From contig NZ_QQTY01000001.1 in assembly GCF_003670115.1 (NCBI RefSeq), positions 868,001 through 932,000 on the forward strand: a stretch of DNA of 64,000 nt, given 5' to 3'. Numbering within the stretch: position 1 is the stretch's first letter; every line of letters begins with the position of its first letter. Origin of the DNA: Natronorubrum halophilum (lineage in GTDB: Archaea; Halobacteriota; Halobacteria; Halobacteriales; Natrialbaceae). The notes under the pieces were generated by a model. That model saw nothing but the letters and a program-made list of their open reading frames with translations. It was not told the DNA's origin and did not search any database. A program made the translations under genes and the position numbers. This document shows, piece after piece, positions 44,425 to 53,249 of this stretch.

Positions 44425-45309
44425 ATGGCGCCCACAACCGTCTGTCTAACGTACGATTTCGACGCGGTGTCCGTCTGGATACACACGTTCGGAGCCGGTA
44501 ACGCACCGACGCAACTGTCTCGAGGAGTGTACGGCGCGTGGGTCGGTGCGCCCCGCATACTCGACCTTCACGACGAGCACGACATCCCGGCGACGTGGTT
44601 CGTCCCCGGCCACACGATCGAAAGCTTCCCCAACCGAGTGGGTTCGGTTCACGACCGGGGGTACGAGGTTCAATGCCACGGCTGGAGCCACGTCAATCCG
44701 AGCACGTTCGATACCAAGGAAGCGGAGAAATCGGAGTACGAGCGGGCGATAACGAACATCGAGGACGTGACCGGGCGCACGCCGGTCGGCTTCCGATCGC
44801 CCGCGTGGGAGTTTTCGACACACACGCTCGCCATCCTCGAGGAACTCGGTTTCGAGTGGGACTCGAGCCAGATGGGGAACGATTTCCGGCCGTACTACCT
44901 CCGGAAAAACTGGAGCGCACCCGCCGACGGCCCCTACGAGATCGGTGACTCGACCGAGATCGTGGAAGTGCCGATCTCGTGGAAACGGGCGGATTTTCCG
45001 GCGCTGATGTTCGTCTGGGAGCAGTCGATACTGTGGGGGTTCGCCGACGAGCGATCGGTGTTCGACCTGTGGCAGGCCCAGTTCGACTGGCTGTACGAGA
45101 ACGTCGACGGCGGGATCTTCACCCTCGCGATGCACCCACAGGTGATCGGACAGCCCCCGCGCACGGCGCGTCTGGAGGAACTGATCACCCACATGAAAAC
45201 GAAACCGGACGTCGAGTTCGCAGCCCTCGGAACGGTCGTCGACGAGATCGAAGCCGGCGATCGGGAGATCTTCGAAGTGATGGGGGAACACGAGGAGAGT
45301 GGGATCTGA
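44425..45309 (+). CDS. polysaccharide deacetylase family protein
   Basis: A 294-aa protein of the NodB/PuuE-type deacetylase fold. LTYDFD holds the first Asp, and CHGWSH the metal His pair near residue 75. The FRSPAW segment is the usual motif 3. The family includes peptidoglycan/chitin deacetylases and allantoinase-like PuuE. No signal peptide is present, so a cytoplasmic PuuE-like amidase is possible. Confidence 0.86.
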   Translation: MAPTTVCLTYDFDAVSVWIHTFGAGNAPTQLSRGVYGAWVGAPRILDLHDEHDIPATWFVPGHTIESFPNRVGSVHDRGYEVQCHGWSHVNPSTFDTKEAEKSEYERAITNIEDVTGRTPVGFRSPAWEFSTHTLAILEELGFEWDSSQMGNDFRPYYLRKNWSAPADGPYEIGDSTEIVEVPISWKRADFPALMFVWEQSILWGFADERSVFDLWQAQFDWLYENVDGGIFTLAMHPQVIGQPPRTARLEELITHMKTKPDVEFAALGTVVDEIEAGDREIFEVMGEHEESGI

Positions 45310-45363
45310 GCGTCCGGCAGGCCGTCCGCACACGAACGGTAGTCGACGGTCATCGAGCGGGCG

Positions 45364-46533
45364 TCACTCCTCGGCGAGCCCGATCGGTTGCGTACTGGTC
45401 ACCCCGCCGTCGTCGTTCAGCAGGTGGGCGCGGACGTAGGGAACGTGATCGGCCGACAGCGAGATCGTCTCGTCGGTTGATACGACCTCCCCGTCGCTCA
45501 CCCAGCCGAGATCGTCGTAGTCGGACGCCTCGATCGAGATCGCACCGGCATCGCGATCGACAGTGAGCGCGTCGACGAGCGGCCCCGGCGCTGGGTCCTC
45601 CGAGTCGGGATCCCACGTCTCGCGCCCGTGGAGCAACGTTCGACCGGCGATCATCGCGTTCGCCGCGGCCCGTCTCGAGGCGGGTTGGTCGGTCGGATCG
45701 AACTCGGTGTCGTCGAGCAACACGGTGGTCCAGTTGACGTCCAGGTCGGACCCGAGTTCGTACTCCGTCGGATCGTCGACGCCGAATCCCCAGAGCAGCC
45801 GATCGGGCGCGAACACCGAGAGCAGGGCGTCCCACAGCCGGAGATCGTGACCGAGGATCGACGTCCTGTTGAACACCTCGAGTCCGACCATGCCCTGTTC
45901 GCGCGTCCGGAACTCGAAGTCCGTCCGGTACCGTTCCCACGCGTCGTCCGGATCGCTCCACGCGTAGTAGAAAAACGGGTGGGCGAGGACTGCCAGCCCG
46001 CCGCCGTCGGCGGGGACGTGGTGGTCCGTTCGATCGACGATCGCGTGGGACTGTTCCCACCGGTCGGTGATCTCGTCACCGTCCACGTCGGCGTGAGCGA
46101 GCGTGCTGAAGAGCGATGAGACGTGTTCGTCGTACGCGAACTCACAGCCGGGAAAGGCGACGACGCCGAGTTCCTCGGGATTTCGATCCTCGAACGCGCC
46201 GTCGATGGTCGAAAAAGCCGTCCAGGGCCACGCGATCGGTCGACCCCCCTTGTCCGCAACGGCGTAGACGGTGTAGTCCAGTTCGCGGTAGCGGTCGACG
46301 ACCTCCGCGGGTTCGGTCACCGCGCCGCGCACGTGGTTGTGGAACTCGCACTTGTGAGCGGTCACGGTCCGCCAGTCGACGGCGTCGTACGGATCGTAGA
46401 CGACTCGGACGTCCGAATCGGCGAACTGTCCGTCGACCGATCCGCGCACGTCGGATGCTCGAGACCGTGGCGAGATCGGGAGGCTTACTGTGGCACCGAC
46501 GGCAGTTCTCGAGAGGAATCGTCTGCGTTCCAT
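45364..46533 (-). CDS. Tat-exported PHP-superfamily-like protein
   Basis: A 389-aa protein. MERRRFLSRTAVG is a Tat signal without a following lipobox Cys, so the product may be released. The mature part has EFHNH near residue 68, AHP near 190 and further His/Asp residues, the spacing of metal ligands in PHP-type phosphoesterases. A TATA-like CCTATGAC lies about 26 nt upstream. Its role outside the cell is unknown. Confidence 0.78.
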   Translation of the reverse strand: MERRRFLSRTAVGATVSLPISPRSRASDVRGSVDGQFADSDVRVVYDPYDAVDWRTVTAHKCEFHNHVRGAVTEPAEVVDRYRELDYTVYAVADKGGRPIAWPWTAFSTIDGAFEDRNPEELGVVAFPGCEFAYDEHVSSLFSTLAHADVDGDEITDRWEQSHAIVDRTDHHVPADGGGLAVLAHPFFYYAWSDPDDAWERYRTDFEFRTREQGMVGLEVFNRTSILGHDLRLWDALLSVFAPDRLLWGFGVDDPTEYELGSDLDVNWTTVLLDDTEFDPTDQPASRRAAANAMIAGRTLLHGRETWDPDSEDPAPGPLVDALTVDRDAGAISIEASDYDDLGWVSDGEVVSTDETISLSADHVPYVRAHLLNDDGGVTSTQPIGLAEE

Positions 46534-46756
46534 ACGTCCTCCACCCCAACCCCCGTCATAGGGTTGTCATCGGGTCGTCGTGACACTCCCGACTGCTGTC
46601 TCGAACGCCGTTCCAGACGGACCGGACATAGTGTGACAGAAAGCCCTCAGAATCGGGGAAAGCGAAGTTCGTAATCTGCGGCGGAGACTCGCCTGCGTTT
46701 TGAGATGAAGGCATCGCTTAGTCAGCGGAAACAGGAGCGTTCAGTCGGTCTTACTA

Positions 46757-46910
46757 TCCCCTTCGGGGAATCCTCGTCCTCGAAAACGCGTTACGTTTTC
46801 GGGTGTGGCCCGAGATGGCCGCGCCATCTCGGCATCACGAGAGACGACCTCTCTCGAACGACAACGAGACGCGTTGCGTCTCGTCATGCCCCTTTAGGGC
46901 GGGGAGGATG
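46757..46910 (+). ncRNA. hairpin array resembling the right end and omega-RNA of an IS200/IS605 (TnpB) element
   Basis: Six consecutive stem-loops: 46757-46769, 46781-46801, 46810-46832 (10-bp stem), 46838-46856, 46864-46884 (9-bp stem) and 46888-46900. They end in AGGGCGGGGAGGATGTCA, the kind of terminus I know from haloarchaeal TnpB elements. There is no tnpA or tnpB frame nearby, so this looks like a right-end remnant or a non-autonomous copy. It stops exactly at the stop codon of the next gene (46911). Transcription is not shown. Confidence 0.6.
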
Positions 46911-47348
46911 TCAAAATTGTCCGAAAATGCTCCCGTCCGCGTACTTTCGCTCGTACTCCGCATCGTCCGCGATAAGTATGAGAATCCCCTCGACGAGTCC
47001 GAGGAGGGAAGGGATGCCCGTCCAGAAAAAGCAGAGGTAGAGGACGCCGTACTTGATGTTTCCTTGGTAGAATTTGTGCGCACCGATTCCACCGAGCAGA
47101 AGGGCCAAGATGCCGGCGACGATCTTGTCCGAGTTGGCGTCGCTACTGGTGGAGTACTGCCTCACGCCGCATTCCGGACAGATTTCCGCCTTTTTGTTTA
47201 TCAACTCGCCGCATTCGAGACAGTATTTCTCGTTCTCGTTTCGGTTCCCGTCTCCCGCCTCGAGCGTGGTCGTCTGGGCGACGCCACAGCCAGGACAGCG
47301 TTCCGCGGTATCGTTGATCTGGTCCCCACAGTTGATGCAGTGTTTCAT
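46911..47348 (-). CDS. TM2-domain protein with two zinc ribbons
   Basis: A 145-aa protein starting at ATG 47348 (MKHCINCG). Two CxxC...CxxC ribbons occupy residues 4-22 and 43-63. A TM2-type membrane pair follows, with GGIGAHKFYQG and the ...WTGIPSLLGLVEGI... spans. Such proteins are small membrane proteins of unknown role. A TATA-like TTTTATG lies about 30 nt upstream of the start. Its last codon abuts the TnpB-like right-end remnant. Confidence 0.85.
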   Translation of the reverse strand: MKHCINCGDQINDTAERCPGCGVAQTTTLEAGDGNRNENEKYCLECGELINKKAEICPECGVRQYSTSSDANSDKIVAGILALLLGGIGAHKFYQGNIKYGVLYLCFFWTGIPSLLGLVEGILILIADDAEYERKYADGSIFGQF

Positions 47349-47386
47349 CGTGATCTCTTTTGGCTTGTCACAGCAGTCATAAAACA

Positions 47387-47857
47387 TTAGCCATGTTTCA
47401 GTTCACCGGGCTGTAATGAATAGAGAAGAGCACCGGCGATAACCCCGTAGGCGACTCCCACGGCGGCGACGCGAAAATCGGCCGCGAGGAACAGTCGTGG
47501 CAAACCGACGCCGTACCCGTATCCGAGCAGAAAGCCCGTGGTCGTTCGAACGGCGTTGTACCCTCGACGGTCGGTAAACGTCGTCACCGTCCAGTCGACG
47601 AGCGCAGGAAGCGGGAAACCGAGGACGATCAACAGGGCGGTGGTCGACGAATGCGCGAGACCGGACGCGAACAGCGAGGCGGCGAGCGCGGCGAGTATCC
47701 CCGGGTACAGTCCCAGACACCGCGCACAGAAGTGGATCCGTCTGCCGAAGACCACGGGTGAGTAACACCGGTAGCGCTCGGACGGAACGTGGTGGGACAG
47801 GAGGTACGGCCACGTCCTCGAGAGTCCCTTTCGCACCTCCGCCCGGTCGATTCCCAT
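47387..47857 (-). CDS. DUF2085-type membrane protein
   Basis: A 156-aa protein. After a soluble N-terminus there is a FCARCLGLYPG motif, the hallmark of DUF2085, then about four membrane helices. The Cys residues of RCYSP and FCARC may bind a metal. A TATA-like CTTTTAGTC sits about 26 nt above the ATG at 47857. It is separated from the TM2 gene by 38 bp; function unknown. Confidence 0.85.
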   Translation of the reverse strand: MGIDRAEVRKGLSRTWPYLLSHHVPSERYRCYSPVVFGRRIHFCARCLGLYPGILAALAASLFASGLAHSSTTALLIVLGFPLPALVDWTVTTFTDRRGYNAVRTTTGFLLGYGYGVGLPRLFLAADFRVAAVGVAYGVIAGALLYSLQPGELKHG

Positions 47858-47949
47858 ACCGGATCTCAGCGACTGCGACGACTAAAAGTTGTGCGTAACC
47901 GACGGATCCGATTCCCGTCCATCGCGACACCGATGCAGTCGGTCGTGGC

Positions 47950-48990
47950 TCAGTACTGCGGGTTGGACGAGAGTTCGTCGTATTCGTAGGAGTAGGAGTT
48001 GATACCCGCTTCCTCACAGCGTGAACATAAGTTTGCTGGCAGAACATACGTCCGCTCACCCAATCCTTTCTCGAGATGTTTGCAAAATGCAATGGTGATC
48101 TCTCGATCTTCCGCGCTACCTTCTGCACCCTCGAGCACCACCGCCAGATCCGGATCGTCGTAATCCGGTTTGATGACGTAATCGCCCGGAGTGAAAGGGT
48201 TCTCCGCGTGCTCAAGATTAGTGTGTTTGTAGGTATAGAGCTTGATATCCTGATCGTCACAGTAGGATGCAAGCTTCGCGGGATGGATTTCGCGCCAGTT
48301 GCCAGGTCCGTCATCGAGCATATTCGGAAACGCGACACTGACGGCTTCGCCATCCATCGTCTGTCCATAGAGATTAACGTCTTGTTCCGGTGGGAGAACC
48401 TCTACGACCACAGCAACTGAAGCATCGGTATCTTCTGCTTTAACCACTCGATCGCCGGGTTTGAACGGGTTCTGTGGCTTCTGATTCATGTGGGCCGTGT
48501 TCGGCCCCAGATCCTGTAACTCGTTCATCGGACGCGCAGCGAGGTGCGCAAGCTTCTCCGGTTCCTCCCCGGAGTACGCCGTCTGCGTTTTGACTTTCGA
48601 CTTGAGCGTTTCAGTTCGCTCCCAGCCAAGGAGAATAAGCGCATCTTCGTTGTCCCGATGCCAGACCATCACGATAATATCGTCGTCCGGATCGTTCTCG
48701 AGGATGTTTGCCGGACGAAACGCGGAGACGTCCCTCGAGGTTTTCACGTCGATTTCGTAGCCGAAGACGTCGAAGTCGTGACCGGAGAAACTCTCGGGAT
48801 TACAGCGCCGGATCGCTTCTTCGTTCTCCCAGTCCCACATCTCGACGGGGAGGTATTCGCGGCAGAACTGCTCGAACGCGAGTTCGCCGAGGTTCCCGAT
48901 CCGTTTGACATCTAAATTATCCGCACCCTGGATAACCGCTTGGTGATGTGCTCGCTCTCTATCGATTTCGTCCGGCGTATAGAGATACAT
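47950..48990 (-). CDS. PD-(D/E)XK nuclease-like protein with two C-terminal repeat domains
   Basis: A 346-aa protein starting at ATG 48990. The N-terminal domain has GELAFEQF (E36) and HDFDVFGYEIDVKTS, giving D74 and D81-x-K83, the PD-(D/E)XK pattern of restriction-type nucleases. Two homologous C-terminal repeats (about 174-255 and 264-338) each begin NPF-x-PGD and look like SH3/barrel modules. Longer 5' extension to 49059 is unlikely because an inverted repeat covers the start. Codon use is less GC-rich than the core genes, suggesting acquisition. No methylase or partner gene was found. Confidence 0.72.
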   Translation of the reverse strand: MYLYTPDEIDRERAHHQAVIQGADNLDVKRIGNLGELAFEQFCREYLPVEMWDWENEEAIRRCNPESFSGHDFDVFGYEIDVKTSRDVSAFRPANILENDPDDDIIVMVWHRDNEDALILLGWERTETLKSKVKTQTAYSGEEPEKLAHLAARPMNELQDLGPNTAHMNQKPQNPFKPGDRVVKAEDTDASVAVVVEVLPPEQDVNLYGQTMDGEAVSVAFPNMLDDGPGNWREIHPAKLASYCDDQDIKLYTYKHTNLEHAENPFTPGDYVIKPDYDDPDLAVVLEGAEGSAEDREITIAFCKHLEKGLGERTYVLPANLCSRCEEAGINSYSYEYDELSSNPQY

Positions 48991-49023
48991 TACGCTCTGG
49001 TTATTTGTTAGCGTAATGTATCT
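48983..49023. promoter_or_regulatory. 14-bp perfect inverted repeat over the nuclease-like gene start
   Basis: Arms AGATACATTACGCT (48983-48996) and AGCGTAATGTATCT (49010-49023) are exact complements around a 13-nt AT-rich spacer. The left arm covers the ATG at 48988-48990 and its first bases. Position fits an operator or an mRNA 5' hairpin controlling the gene. Confidence 0.75.
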
Positions 49024-49321
49024 TACGCACGGGTAGCAGCTTGGGAAACAATACGACATCCGGGTTGGTCTATGGCCGATCTGCTACCCGTTGCTGTCTC
49101 ACGATCACAGAGAACTACGTATTTGTTCGTGGCTAAAATAGGGTTCGCGTGCTAGTCCGCGTCAATAATTCGATTGACATAAGAACGGAAATCCGTTTCG
49201 TCACGAAGTAACGAGGTCTGTGCTACCGGATAGAATGACTCTATCGAACGTGGTAGTTACTGTCATTCCATGAACGGACTTTATGCTTCCAAGCAGTTAA
49301 TAGATTATACAGTGATGGGTC
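49024..49321. other. divergent intergenic region, AT-rich
   Basis: About 300 bp between the nuclease-like gene and the DUF4013-type gene. GC is lower than in core genes. A TTAATAGATTATAC stretch near 49298-49311 is a plausible TATA region for the downstream ATG at 49322. No gene seen. Confidence 0.45.
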
Positions 49322-50653
49322 ATGGGCACACAACTATCGAAGTCATCTCTAGAGAACTACTCGATCCGAAACGTGCTCGTCGGATCGGCCACGTATCCGC
49401 TGAGAACACCAAATAAGAAAGTCGCGTTCCTCGTCGGCGGGCTGCTTCTGATTCCGGTGAGTATTGTAACGAGTATTCCGTGGGACGAAACGGCGAATTC
49501 GACCATCATCAACGTATTACTGCTGGGTTCAGCCCTGCTTTCGATACTCCCGATCGGATACTATGTGCGAGTTATCCAGCAGGTATCACGCGGAAACCGT
49601 GATCCACCCGCTTTCGACCTCGGGAACTGGAAGAGTTTGTTCAGCGTCGGTACAAGAGCGATCGTCATCTATATGATTTTTCTCTTCTATCCACAGAAAG
49701 CCATGGGCGCAGTAACTGGATTGCCGGGACAGATCAGCATAGAGGCGCTGGAGGGGTGGCTCGGGGGGATAATGACCGTCCTGTTGGTTTTCATCGCGAG
49801 CACCGTTGTCTATCCATCGACAGTTTTGAATTTTGTTCGTGAGGAGAAACTTCTTGACGCGTTCTCTCCGACGTTACTTCTCTCAATGATGGTCAATCGA
49901 AAGTTCATAATTGGGATAATCCCAGTCGCAATCATAACCCAGGTGATTTCGTTCACCATCTCGAGACTGGTTTTATCAGATCTTACTGGAGATTTTACCA
50001 TCGGTCCGCTAACGATAGTCCTCGTCGGCCTGGCAGCGTTCTACCTGGGAATGTCGCTGAATTACGCTCTCGGTCGCCAGTTGGAGGCCGTACTCGTTAC
50101 TGAGGCGGAGCAGGATACGGCCTTCGAACCGAGCTTTCGCCCACCGTTGAACGCTCTCACGGAATTGTATGAGGCAGGCGTTTTCACAGCAGATGAATAT
50201 TACTTGAAGCGACGCGACCTCGACACAGTTACCGAAACAACGTCACCAGCGCCATCGACACAACTGACTACTGTTCGTCAACTCAATACACGCGGCATCG
50301 TATCGGACGAGGAGTTCGAAGCGACGAAGCAAGCGTTATCCACGGACACAGAGCACTCACAGACCGGTTCTACTGTCTCGGCTGACAACGGGGACTCGAA
50401 CATTCGATCCGAGACGAGACCGCTGGAAGCGCTGTATCACCTGTACGAAGAGGGGATTTTGACCAAAGCCGAATACGAAGAGATACAGCGAACCCTCAGA
50501 GAACAAACTAATTCGAAGGTGCCCGACGATCAATATCCGTCGAAGATTGCTGCACAACTTACCGACCTCGAGTACGTACACGAACTAGAACTAGTTACCG
50601 ACCGAGAATATGCAGAAAAGCGACAGCAGATAGAGGACCAGTCCTCATTGTAA
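49322..50653 (+). CDS. DUF4013-like membrane protein with four SHOCT-like C-terminal repeats
   Basis: A 443-aa protein. Residues 33-250 contain about six membrane helices, with the PPAFDLGNWKSLFSVG motif of DUF4013-type proteins. The soluble C-terminus carries four short helical repeats with the SHOCT pattern (L-x2-L-x-E-x-G-I-x-T-x2-E-Y): about 277-300, 317-339, 369-392 and 412-437, separated by Ser/Thr/Asp-rich linkers. SHOCT motifs often help oligomerise membrane proteins. Codon use is AT-richer than the surroundings, as for other accessory genes here. Confidence 0.8.
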   Translation: MGTQLSKSSLENYSIRNVLVGSATYPLRTPNKKVAFLVGGLLLIPVSIVTSIPWDETANSTIINVLLLGSALLSILPIGYYVRVIQQVSRGNRDPPAFDLGNWKSLFSVGTRAIVIYMIFLFYPQKAMGAVTGLPGQISIEALEGWLGGIMTVLLVFIASTVVYPSTVLNFVREEKLLDAFSPTLLLSMMVNRKFIIGIIPVAIITQVISFTISRLVLSDLTGDFTIGPLTIVLVGLAAFYLGMSLNYALGRQLEAVLVTEAEQDTAFEPSFRPPLNALTELYEAGVFTADEYYLKRRDLDTVTETTSPAPSTQLTTVRQLNTRGIVSDEEFEATKQALSTDTEHSQTGSTVSADNGDSNIRSETRPLEALYHLYEEGILTKAEYEEIQRTLREQTNSKVPDDQYPSKIAAQLTDLEYVHELELVTDREYAEKRQQIEDQSSL

Positions 50654-50699
50654 ACAGGCGTGCATTCACGACGACAGTAGTCTAGCACTCGCATGAATA

Positions 50700-51410
50700 A
50701 TGGTTAAGAATTTGGACGGCATAGGTACAGAAGAGATGGAGGAAGGACGAGGGGGACACACACGTCGTCGTGTTCTGATGGCCGTCGGCGGATCTGTGAG
50801 TATCGTTCTGTCCGGCTGTCTATCGATACCCGAAAACTCGATTAACGGGGATAACGCCACTGAAAACGGTACCACCCTGCCACCGGACGGGCAACCGGAT
50901 CCGGAGGCGTTGCCCCATCCAGAAGAAGATCCGGACGCGCCCAACGCCGATCCGGAGGTGTTAGCGAAGTATACGAGTTCCCAATTCGCGTACAGTACGT
51001 TGTATCCGGAAGCATGGAGTATCGATGAGAGCGATCCCACGACAGTCGCGTTCCTTCCAGCGGATGAGGTCGGCGGACAGAAACTGTATACCTTCTCGAA
51101 CGAGGAATCGCTGTCCGTAGAGGAGTTTGCGGAACGGTGGCTTACCACCGCCAGCGATACTGCCGCAACGTACGATGTGGTAGAATCAAGATATGTGACG
51201 ATTCCGAGTGGCCAGACGGGGATTATCTACGACATCGATTCAACGTATGAGAGTGGTGAATTCCGGCAAAAGGTGCTCGTCGTTACAGCAAGCGTAGCCC
51301 AGTACGTGAACGAATTTTGGCTGTCTGCGGACGTGTATACCGAAAAAGTCGACCAATTCGTCGATCTCATCTCCGAATCGCTGACACTACTTTCGGCTGA
51401 AACAGGGTAG
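50700..51410 (+). CDS. Tat lipoprotein with a PsbP/Mog1-like domain
   Basis: A 236-aa protein. RRRVLMAVGG plus a hydrophobic run and LSGC gives a Tat lipobox near residue 40. The mature part opens with an acidic linker then SQFAYSTLYPEAWSI, the strand pattern of PsbP-like domains also seen in the gene at 52254-52802. The start may be ATG 50700 or the ATG at 50736. It lies 46 bp after the DUF4013-type gene and may be read with it. Confidence 0.8.
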   Translation: MVKNLDGIGTEEMEEGRGGHTRRRVLMAVGGSVSIVLSGCLSIPENSINGDNATENGTTLPPDGQPDPEALPHPEEDPDAPNADPEVLAKYTSSQFAYSTLYPEAWSIDESDPTTVAFLPADEVGGQKLYTFSNEESLSVEEFAERWLTTASDTAATYDVVESRYVTIPSGQTGIIYDIDSTYESGEFRQKVLVVTASVAQYVNEFWLSADVYTEKVDQFVDLISESLTLLSAETG

Positions 51411-51462
51411 TCCGACTGCCTGAGAGAGCGTCGCTCCCGCTCCGGTTACGCCGAGGAGAACG

Positions 51463-52236
51463 TCACTTCGACTCGTACTCGACGAGTTCGACCTCGAGTT
51501 CGAGGTCGCCGTCCTCGGTGTAGGTGGCCACGTAGGGGGCGATTCCGACCTCCGAGGCGCGGAGACAGCCCTGCTTGGAGCGGTCGCCGTCGATCGTCGT
51601 CTCGACGAGGGAACACTCGACCCCCGCGTAGGAGCGTTTCTCCGTGACCTCGGTGATCTGGGTCCCCTCGTCGGTGGTGGTCTGTTTGCGGTTGCCGACC
51701 GAGGGGTTCGTAAAGCCCATTTCGACATAGTAGAGCAGAGAGACGCTCTGGAGCGCCAAGATCGGCTTGTGAGCCGGTGTGAGGAACAGTTGGCCGGACA
51801 CCTCGTCGCCAGGAGCGGTTACGGTCGACTGATACTGCTCGTCGCCGAACTCGTAGTCGACGCTCGTCGTTACCTCCTCGCCGGCGTCCTCGATGTCGTA
51901 CACCAGCCGCCCGGTGACCTGTTCGCCGGTCTCCTCGTCCATCCCCGCGAGGTCGAAGGCGTAGTAGCCCGGTCGACTCAGGTTGAACCAGTCGTCGTCC
52001 GCGTCGGCTCCGTCGCCGATCATCGAGCCGAGACCGTCGTCGTCAGCATCACCGCTGTCGGCCCCACTGTCGTCCGCCGCATCGTTCTCGCCGTCCTCGA
52101 GGTCACCCAGCCCGCCCGTCCCGGTACAGCCCGCGAGGGCGACCGAGAGGACGACCACAACCGTCAGAACGGTGTGGGCAGTCAGCTTCGCGTTCAGCAA
52201 TCGATCCAGTCCGGATTGTCCGTGTGATTCGTCCAT
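51463..52236 (-). CDS. lipoprotein, unknown function (third gene of a minus-strand trio)
   Basis: A 257-aa protein. A hydrophobic segment (HTVLTVVVVLSVALAGC) ends in a lipobox Cys near residue 36, without an RR motif, so it may use Sec. An acidic low-complexity linker (35-80) is followed by a beta-rich domain with an FDLAGMDEETG segment. It starts 17 bp below the PsbP-like gene, so they are probably one transcript. Confidence 0.8.
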   Translation of the reverse strand: MDESHGQSGLDRLLNAKLTAHTVLTVVVVLSVALAGCTGTGGLGDLEDGENDAADDSGADSGDADDDGLGSMIGDGADADDDWFNLSRPGYYAFDLAGMDEETGEQVTGRLVYDIEDAGEEVTTSVDYEFGDEQYQSTVTAPGDEVSGQLFLTPAHKPILALQSVSLLYYVEMGFTNPSVGNRKQTTTDEGTQITEVTEKRSYAGVECSLVETTIDGDRSKQGCLRASEVGIAPYVATYTEDGDLELEVELVEYESK

Positions 52237-52253
52237 GTGTCGTAGTTCCGTTT

Positions 52254-52802
52254 TCAGTTCGTTTCGACGGCGAACGACTCGACGATCCGCGCGGCGAGTT
52301 CGTCGAGACCGTCATCGTCGTTCCAGTCCACCCCGAGGACGTAGCCGGTCTCGCCCTCGCGGACGAAGAGGTAGGTGAGCCGCCAGCGCTCGCCGTCGGG
52401 TTCGCCCCAGTAGGCGTAATCGACCACCCGACCCATCCCCCCGCTCTCGAGGAAGACGTCCCGGCGATCGAGGCGTTCGATCGCCCGGACGTGCTCGTCA
52501 GCTGCGAGCGTCTCGAGGAAGCCCGCGACGTAGTCCGCCAGCGTGAGGTCGCCGCCCTCGTCGACGGAGACGGTCGCACCGGCCGAGCCTATCCGGTCGT
52601 CGAACGACGTCCCGCCTGCCGGCTCCGCCTTCGCGGACCAGGTAGCCGGATACGCGAGCCGGTAGCCGTACTCGTCGTCAGCATAGGTCTCGAACGACGA
52701 TATCGATCCTGTCCCGTCCATCCCCACGTCGCTGTTCCCGTCCGCCCGTCCGTCGGTCGCTCGTCCAGCGGTATTCCCTGTTTCCTCTCGGTTCGTGGGC
52801 AC
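52254..52802 (-). CDS. PsbP/Mog1-like acidic protein
   Basis: A 182-aa protein with a GTG start at 52802. After a Gly/Asn-rich N-terminus, DDEYGYRLAYPATWSAK opens a PsbP-like domain, which ends in RIVESFAVE. It resembles the domain in the Tat lipoprotein 50700-51410. No signal peptide is visible, unlike that paralogue. It is the middle gene of the minus-strand trio (9 and 17 bp spacings). Confidence 0.75.
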   Translation of the reverse strand: MPTNREETGNTAGRATDGRADGNSDVGMDGTGSISSFETYADDEYGYRLAYPATWSAKAEPAGGTSFDDRIGSAGATVSVDEGGDLTLADYVAGFLETLAADEHVRAIERLDRRDVFLESGGMGRVVDYAYWGEPDGERWRLTYLFVREGETGYVLGVDWNDDDGLDELAARIVESFAVETN

Positions 52803-52811
52803 GGCTCCGCC

Positions 52812-53249
52812 TCAGACCAGTTTGTCGGCGATTCCCGCGACAACGGGCAGTCGGGTGGTCTTGCCCCGGTAGGTCGTGACGATGAGGTAGACCCAGACCG
52901 CGAACCCGCCGAGCGTGAGTCCCAGCCAGACCAATCCGAGGAGCAACGAGATGATGCTCCCGATGATGACTGTACTCGTACTGGCGAACATGACCGTCGT
53001 AAGGATCGTTCCGCCGATGCTCAGTACGATAGAAGCCAGTACGACCAGCCCGGAAACGACGATGCTCTGAGCGGCGTGAAACCGCACGAACTGGTTGTCT
53101 CCTTCGATCAGGAAGAAGATCAGCCCCGAGACGAACCCGAACAGATACGAAAGCGCCCCCGCGACGTTCTCGTCGAGTCCCGATTCGGTTTCCGTTGGTT
53201 CCGTCATACGTTCGGCCTCGAGATCGACGTCCTGTGTATTGCTTGCCAT
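52812..53249 (-). CDS. DUF4870-like membrane protein
   Basis: A 145-aa protein from ATG 53249 (MASNTQDVD). After a charged N-terminus, VAGALSYLFGFVSGLIFFLIE and two more helices match DUF4870-type proteins, which sit in the membrane with an NQFVRFHAAQS motif. An ORF start at 53321 (TTG) would only add 24 unconserved residues. A TATA-like element (TTCATATAATTG, minus strand) is just upstream of that TTG. First gene of the trio. Confidence 0.82.
   Translation of the reverse strand: MASNTQDVDLEAERMTEPTETESGLDENVAGALSYLFGFVSGLIFFLIEGDNQFVRFHAAQSIVVSGLVVLASIVLSIGGTILTTVMFASTSTVIIGSIISLLLGLVWLGLTLGGFAVWVYLIVTTYRGKTTRLPVVAGIADKLV

Follow-up and report, generated by a model that had tools for sequence, protein, structure and literature searches.

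A haloarchaeal family of predicted PD-(D/E)XK-type nucleases with probable SH3-like C-terminal modules, placed in defence islands and in a variable pleolipovirus slot

The type IV enzymes Mrr and McrBC, which work without a cognate methylase, are the described systems to which the gene reported here is most readily compared. Its 346-residue product (hereafter the focal protein) resembles them in being a stand-alone predicted PD-(D/E)XK-type nuclease that has no methylase of its own, is patchily distributed and is mobile, and Mrr and McrB-like genes are often neighbours of the focal gene. It differs from them in lacking a match to Mrr_cat or to any other Pfam family, Mrr_cat being absent from all 27 members scanned, and in carrying C-terminal modules that look SH3-like. 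Helicases related to BREX that combine Tudor and REase domains have been described (PMC12839542), and a provirus of Haloferax lucentense carries CRISPR-Cas (PMC12596717). The latter case resembles the present one in that a virus-carried gene may repel competing viruses, the focal gene lying in a slot of variable content that conserved virus genes flank; it differs in that the focal gene is a single nuclease-type gene, is found in pleolipovirus-type proviruses and has no partner.

The gene lies in a stretch of 64,000 nucleotides from Natronorubrum halophilum, here called the window, where it occupies positions 47950-48990 of the minus strand. The open reading frame proposed at these positions by a first-pass annotation is present. 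Its ATG start at 48990 is common to the homologues, and a conserved leaderless promoter fixes its position. The focal gene is single-copy in its own genome. Its surroundings have a GC content of 48-54%, compared with about 60-68% across most of the window, and its GC3 of 0.63 (window mean 0.79) ranks fifth lowest among 51 genes, so that the accessory-like codon use ascribed to it earlier is borne out. In three congeners the two neighbouring genes, DUF2085 and TM2 zinc-ribbon, stay paired in the absence of the focal gene, and the gene is therefore most simply an insertion in the N. halophilum lineage. No methylase adjoins it in the window, as the first-pass annotation had stated, and no Rfam family was found within 45000-53000. 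The TnpB-like relic that had been placed 1 kb away was dropped, because the TnpB Pfam domains PF07282 and PF01385 gave zero matches anywhere on the window's contig. A membrane protein encoded at 49322-50653 on the plus strand is full-length in this genome alone (61 relatives); elsewhere there is a match of about 30% to its N-terminal part.

The upstream region was compared across 46 non-redundant sequences. The information peaks at a BRE/TATA element at -34 to -26 (49016-49024, minus strand), with A-A at -34/-33 and T-A-Y-A-T at -30 to -26, and only 3 of the 46 regions contain an SD-like motif, a pattern indicating a leaderless haloarchaeal promoter. In the window this region also holds a 14-bp perfect inverted repeat (48983-49023, arms 48983-48996 and 49010-49023), which by length is in the top two of all perfect repeats in the window, scanned as 533 120-bp tiles. 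The strong operator-like repeat reported earlier is thus real and rare, but only partly conserved: the BRE/TATA element makes up the left arm, and the start codon and its flanking bases, AGCGTAATGTATCT, make up the right one. The full repeat was found in the window only, with partial symmetry in close relatives that is accounted for by the TATA element and the start codon, and the operator reading was accordingly rejected as a feature of the family. Within the window's clade the palindrome may take part in autoregulation. A second, imperfect 16-bp inverted repeat (49029-49044 and 49076-49091; 88%, 31-nt spacer) lies upstream of the gene and has no plasmid match.

The N-terminal 150 residues (48541-48990, minus strand) are predicted to form a PD-(D/E)XK-type nuclease domain, as suggested by conserved residues and by the helix and strands of a model. 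The E...D...(D/E)xK active-site set of this superfamily is present on the minus strand as E36 (48883-48885), D72 (48775-48777) and the motif D81-V-K83 (48742-48750), and none of these four residues is substituted in any intact homologue (61/61). At about 30% identity, relatives still keep G32, N33, L34, E36, D72, D81 and K83. Thus, of the catalytic set first proposed, E36, D81 and K83 stand, whereas D74 has to be replaced by D72; position 74 is a glutamate in 58 of the 61 intact homologues and D74 is lost in distant relatives. The (D/E)xK residues were checked for loss and are retained in every one of the 61, and the conservation of the active-site set in all homologues agrees with the PD-(D/E)XK-type core that had been assigned.

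Models of the focal protein are of low confidence, with mean pLDDT values of 68 and 64. The N-terminal model (pLDDT 64) places a helix from residue 26 to between 46 and 54 and strands at 69/71-75, 78-85, 105-111/112 and 117/118-125. Structure searches with it returned no significant match, a result from which little follows given how weak the models are. Its best matches are weak and stand in the same lists as unrelated folds; they include the PD-(D/E)XK enzymes Cas4 SSO0001, MGME1, Rai1/DXO, NaeI and Eco15I, with Z up to 3.5 for Cas4, Rai1 and NaeI. A sequence search of the PDB for relatives gave none that were significant.

Behind this domain lie the two NPFxPGD modules of the first-pass annotation, module 1 at residues 173-262 (48205-48474) and module 2 at residues 263-346 (47953-48204), both on the minus strand and each of about 85 residues. 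They are homologous to each other, with tblastn cross-matches at 30-40% identity and down to E=1e-14 in the locus L079. Their pLDDT is mostly above 80, and the modelled modules superpose on tandem Tudor, Spt5 KOW and R67 DHFR barrels with Z of 5.8-7.3, most over 51-62 residues. SH3-like structures were matched many times, with a Foldseek E of 1.9e-3 at best and a VIA Z of at most 7.3; such values stay under the level needed to discount a common arrangement. The modules had been described as novel; the models suggest instead that they look like SH3-like barrels of the Tudor/KOW type. In contrast to Tudor, KOW and other SH3-like readers, they show no significant sequence match and are duplicated behind a predicted nuclease domain. 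Two modules are present in 52 intact relatives and one in 9, module 2 being the variable copy and the one missing from one-module relatives. Mean pairwise identity accordingly falls from 85% in the nuclease domain to 75% in module 1 and 49% in module 2. Proteins that seemed to consist of a C-terminal module alone were set aside, those examined being mostly decayed or truncated copies.

To Pfam and NCBIfam the focal protein gave nothing above threshold, and none of the PADLOC families matched it up to E=10. No match to a housekeeping family was found. PHROG 18072 matches residues 2-341 (E=1.2e-177) and is the same family; its label carries no function, and the focal family is mostly found outside recognisable viruses. 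Homologues, fragments included, occur in 112 of 392 haloarchaeal genomes and in 49 of 95 genera. The sampled 295 genomes of the phylum held no relatives outside the order, and two scans of IMG/VR returned none. By its sequence matches the family thus appears to be specific to haloarchaea and to belong to no Pfam, NCBIfam or PADLOC entry. Several of the weak hits represent copies in decay. Purifying selection acts on the intact ones, with a median dN/dS of 0.13 over 226 non-independent pairs and values of 0.02-0.10 in several close pairs. The family tree requires at least 13 changes of host family, and identity between host families is often 70-90%, which together show horizontal transfer. The gene or a piece of it is also found in 12 plasmid records, so that the patchy spread, the plasmids and the host-family changes all agree with the accessory character suggested at the outset and mark the gene as mobile.

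The defence role raised by the first-pass annotation is matched by a strong association with defence genes in relatives. Mrr and a D12 adenine methylase lie near the homologue in a Halorubrum/Halobellus lineage that includes pHLAC01, McrB-like AAA_5 proteins are neighbours at L037 and L044, and BREX stands beside the homologue at L082. Further neighbours are PDC-S27/S37, a PLD/SNF2 helicase, QatC and HEC-05, Cas10d and LmuB-like ATPases. PADLOC matches at 1e-6 were obtained for 16 of 20 scanned neighbours versus 2 of 10 same-replicon controls, a comparison that is indicative only, as the 20 were picked by eye and are biased. Defence genes are a minority among the neighbours in the clade to which the window belongs, comprising Natrialba, Natribaculum and this genome. 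A solitary nuclease within defence islands might also be a toxin-like effector, killing or arresting the infected host cell under the control of an unlinked sensor or inhibitor, and the effector systems SIR2 and QatC among its neighbours as well as the frequent decay of the gene would suit such a role. The 49 loci as a whole show no recurrent close partner gene, however, and the gene has a simple leaderless promoter of its own, and we regard the toxin as improbable, the least likely of the explanations considered. L047, L051 and L056 have a two-gene backbone in common, clusters c16 and c21, ahead of the focal gene, and differ in the genes behind it (McrB-like, PLD/SNF2 helicase, Mrr with D12 methylase); the site is a possible integration hotspot.

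The D12 methylase of the Halorubrum/Halobellus lineage leads to the question whether the protein could be a type II restriction endonuclease, shielded by an unlinked host methylase such as the orphan CTAG, GATC and CATTC methylases common in haloarchaea. The PD-(D/E)XK-type core would be compatible with this, and orphan methylases have a wide distribution across Halobacteria (PMC6471742, PMC10609329). Yet no single methylase is common to the loci: most have none next to the focal gene, and the near-identical copies L047, L048 and L051 are without the D12 methylase. The CTAG methylase was rejected as a universal protector because in Halorubrum, a genus in which the focal gene is common, it is seldom present (1/10, PMC10609329). 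The linked cognate methylase of type II systems is likewise absent from Halfgib1, where the cytosine methylase (Dcm) pairs with HfxHg1_070. The type II explanation is thus unlikely, and the type IV trait of having no cognate methylase holds in the window, at most other loci and in Halfgib1.

Halfgib1, an inducible virus, was found as an active provirus (PMC7911831), and a sirtuin has been noted in it (PMC9503650). It represents a second setting of the family: at ten pleolipovirus-type loci the focal gene lies between VP8 and the regulator/integrase end, and one virus record carries it. In the Halfgib1 slot the focal gene has a REase_II gene and the cytosine methylase on one side and a SIR2-TPR gene on the other. 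The REase_II gene, HfxHg1_070 (L080, 8994-10115, minus strand, corresponding to L063:5401-6567), is annotated as hypothetical and matches PADLOC REase_II with E=3e-30; it and the neighbouring Dcm seem to form a complete type II R-M pair. A pairing of the focal gene with this methylase was rejected, as the methylase already adjoins its own REase_II. The provirus L064 (VP8 98%, integrase 99% identical) retains the focal gene in a 2.5-kb slot, and L140 (VP8 98%, integrase 99%) and L141 (VP8 98%, integrase 44%) are without it. The focal gene therefore sits in a variable, swappable pleolipovirus slot. Both of these Haloferax proviruses (L140, 552-4667; L141, 7418-11125) have a short slot, although their VP8 is 97-98% identical. 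L140 also has a partial second copy of VP8 past the integrase, which hints at recombination at the VP8 end.

The ten loci, the virus record, the carriage on plasmids and the membership in a virus protein family, PHROG 18072, would also be expected of a virus or plasmid gene that serves the life cycle of the element or the take-over of the host (replication, recombination or degradation of host DNA) and was later stranded in host genomes. Such an origin does not sit well with a swappable slot and with proviruses that have a 97-98% identical VP8 and no focal gene, nor with the finding that most copies lie outside recognisable proviruses, many of them in defence islands. We consider it about as doubtful as the type II enzyme. 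The tree requires four changes between viral and other contexts.

The explanation we favour, and hold to be probable, is that the focal protein is a stand-alone, metal-dependent PD-(D/E)XK-type nuclease, specific to haloarchaea, that restricts incoming virus or plasmid DNA in a type-IV-like manner. The N-terminal domain would cut nucleic acid using E36, D72, D81 and K83, and the two C-terminal SH3-like modules would bind the target. Because no dedicated methylase travels with the gene, a type-IV-like rule for telling self from non-self seems most likely, and the invader could be distinguished by a DNA modification, by a structural state of the DNA or by a protein on the DNA. Against defence, the nuclease domain and module 1 are unusually conserved for a defence protein that recognises a target, and a role directed against the host would likewise be compatible with carriage by viruses. 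More speculatively, and with less confidence than the restriction reading, the family could form a new class of partner-free antiviral nucleases whose tandem SH3-like modules read a conserved feature of foreign DNA other than methylation, and which would be a main cargo of a previously unrecognised pleolipovirus defence slot that parallels, in archaea, the P2/P4 cargo hotspots.

A strain suited to an experiment is already described. In Halorubrum lacusprofundi, the species of the homologue HLAC_RS16180, strain ACAM34_UNSW has lost pHLAC01, a plasmid with a homologue on it, and shows sensitivity to HRTV-DL1 (PMC10544981). As the loss of pHLAC01 also took CRISPR-Cas, R-M and BREX (PMC10544981), this sensitivity is no evidence for the focal gene, and the strain offers a ready test host with a clean background. 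The gene or its remains are present in about 29% of the sampled haloarchaeal genomes, yet the family has no entry in Pfam, NCBIfam or PADLOC, and catalogues of haloarchaeal defence consequently miss it. The neighbourhood points to a pleolipovirus cargo slot for type II R-M, SIR2-TPR and this predicted nuclease, and through such a slot archaeal viruses that are non-lytic would act as carriers of defence genes.
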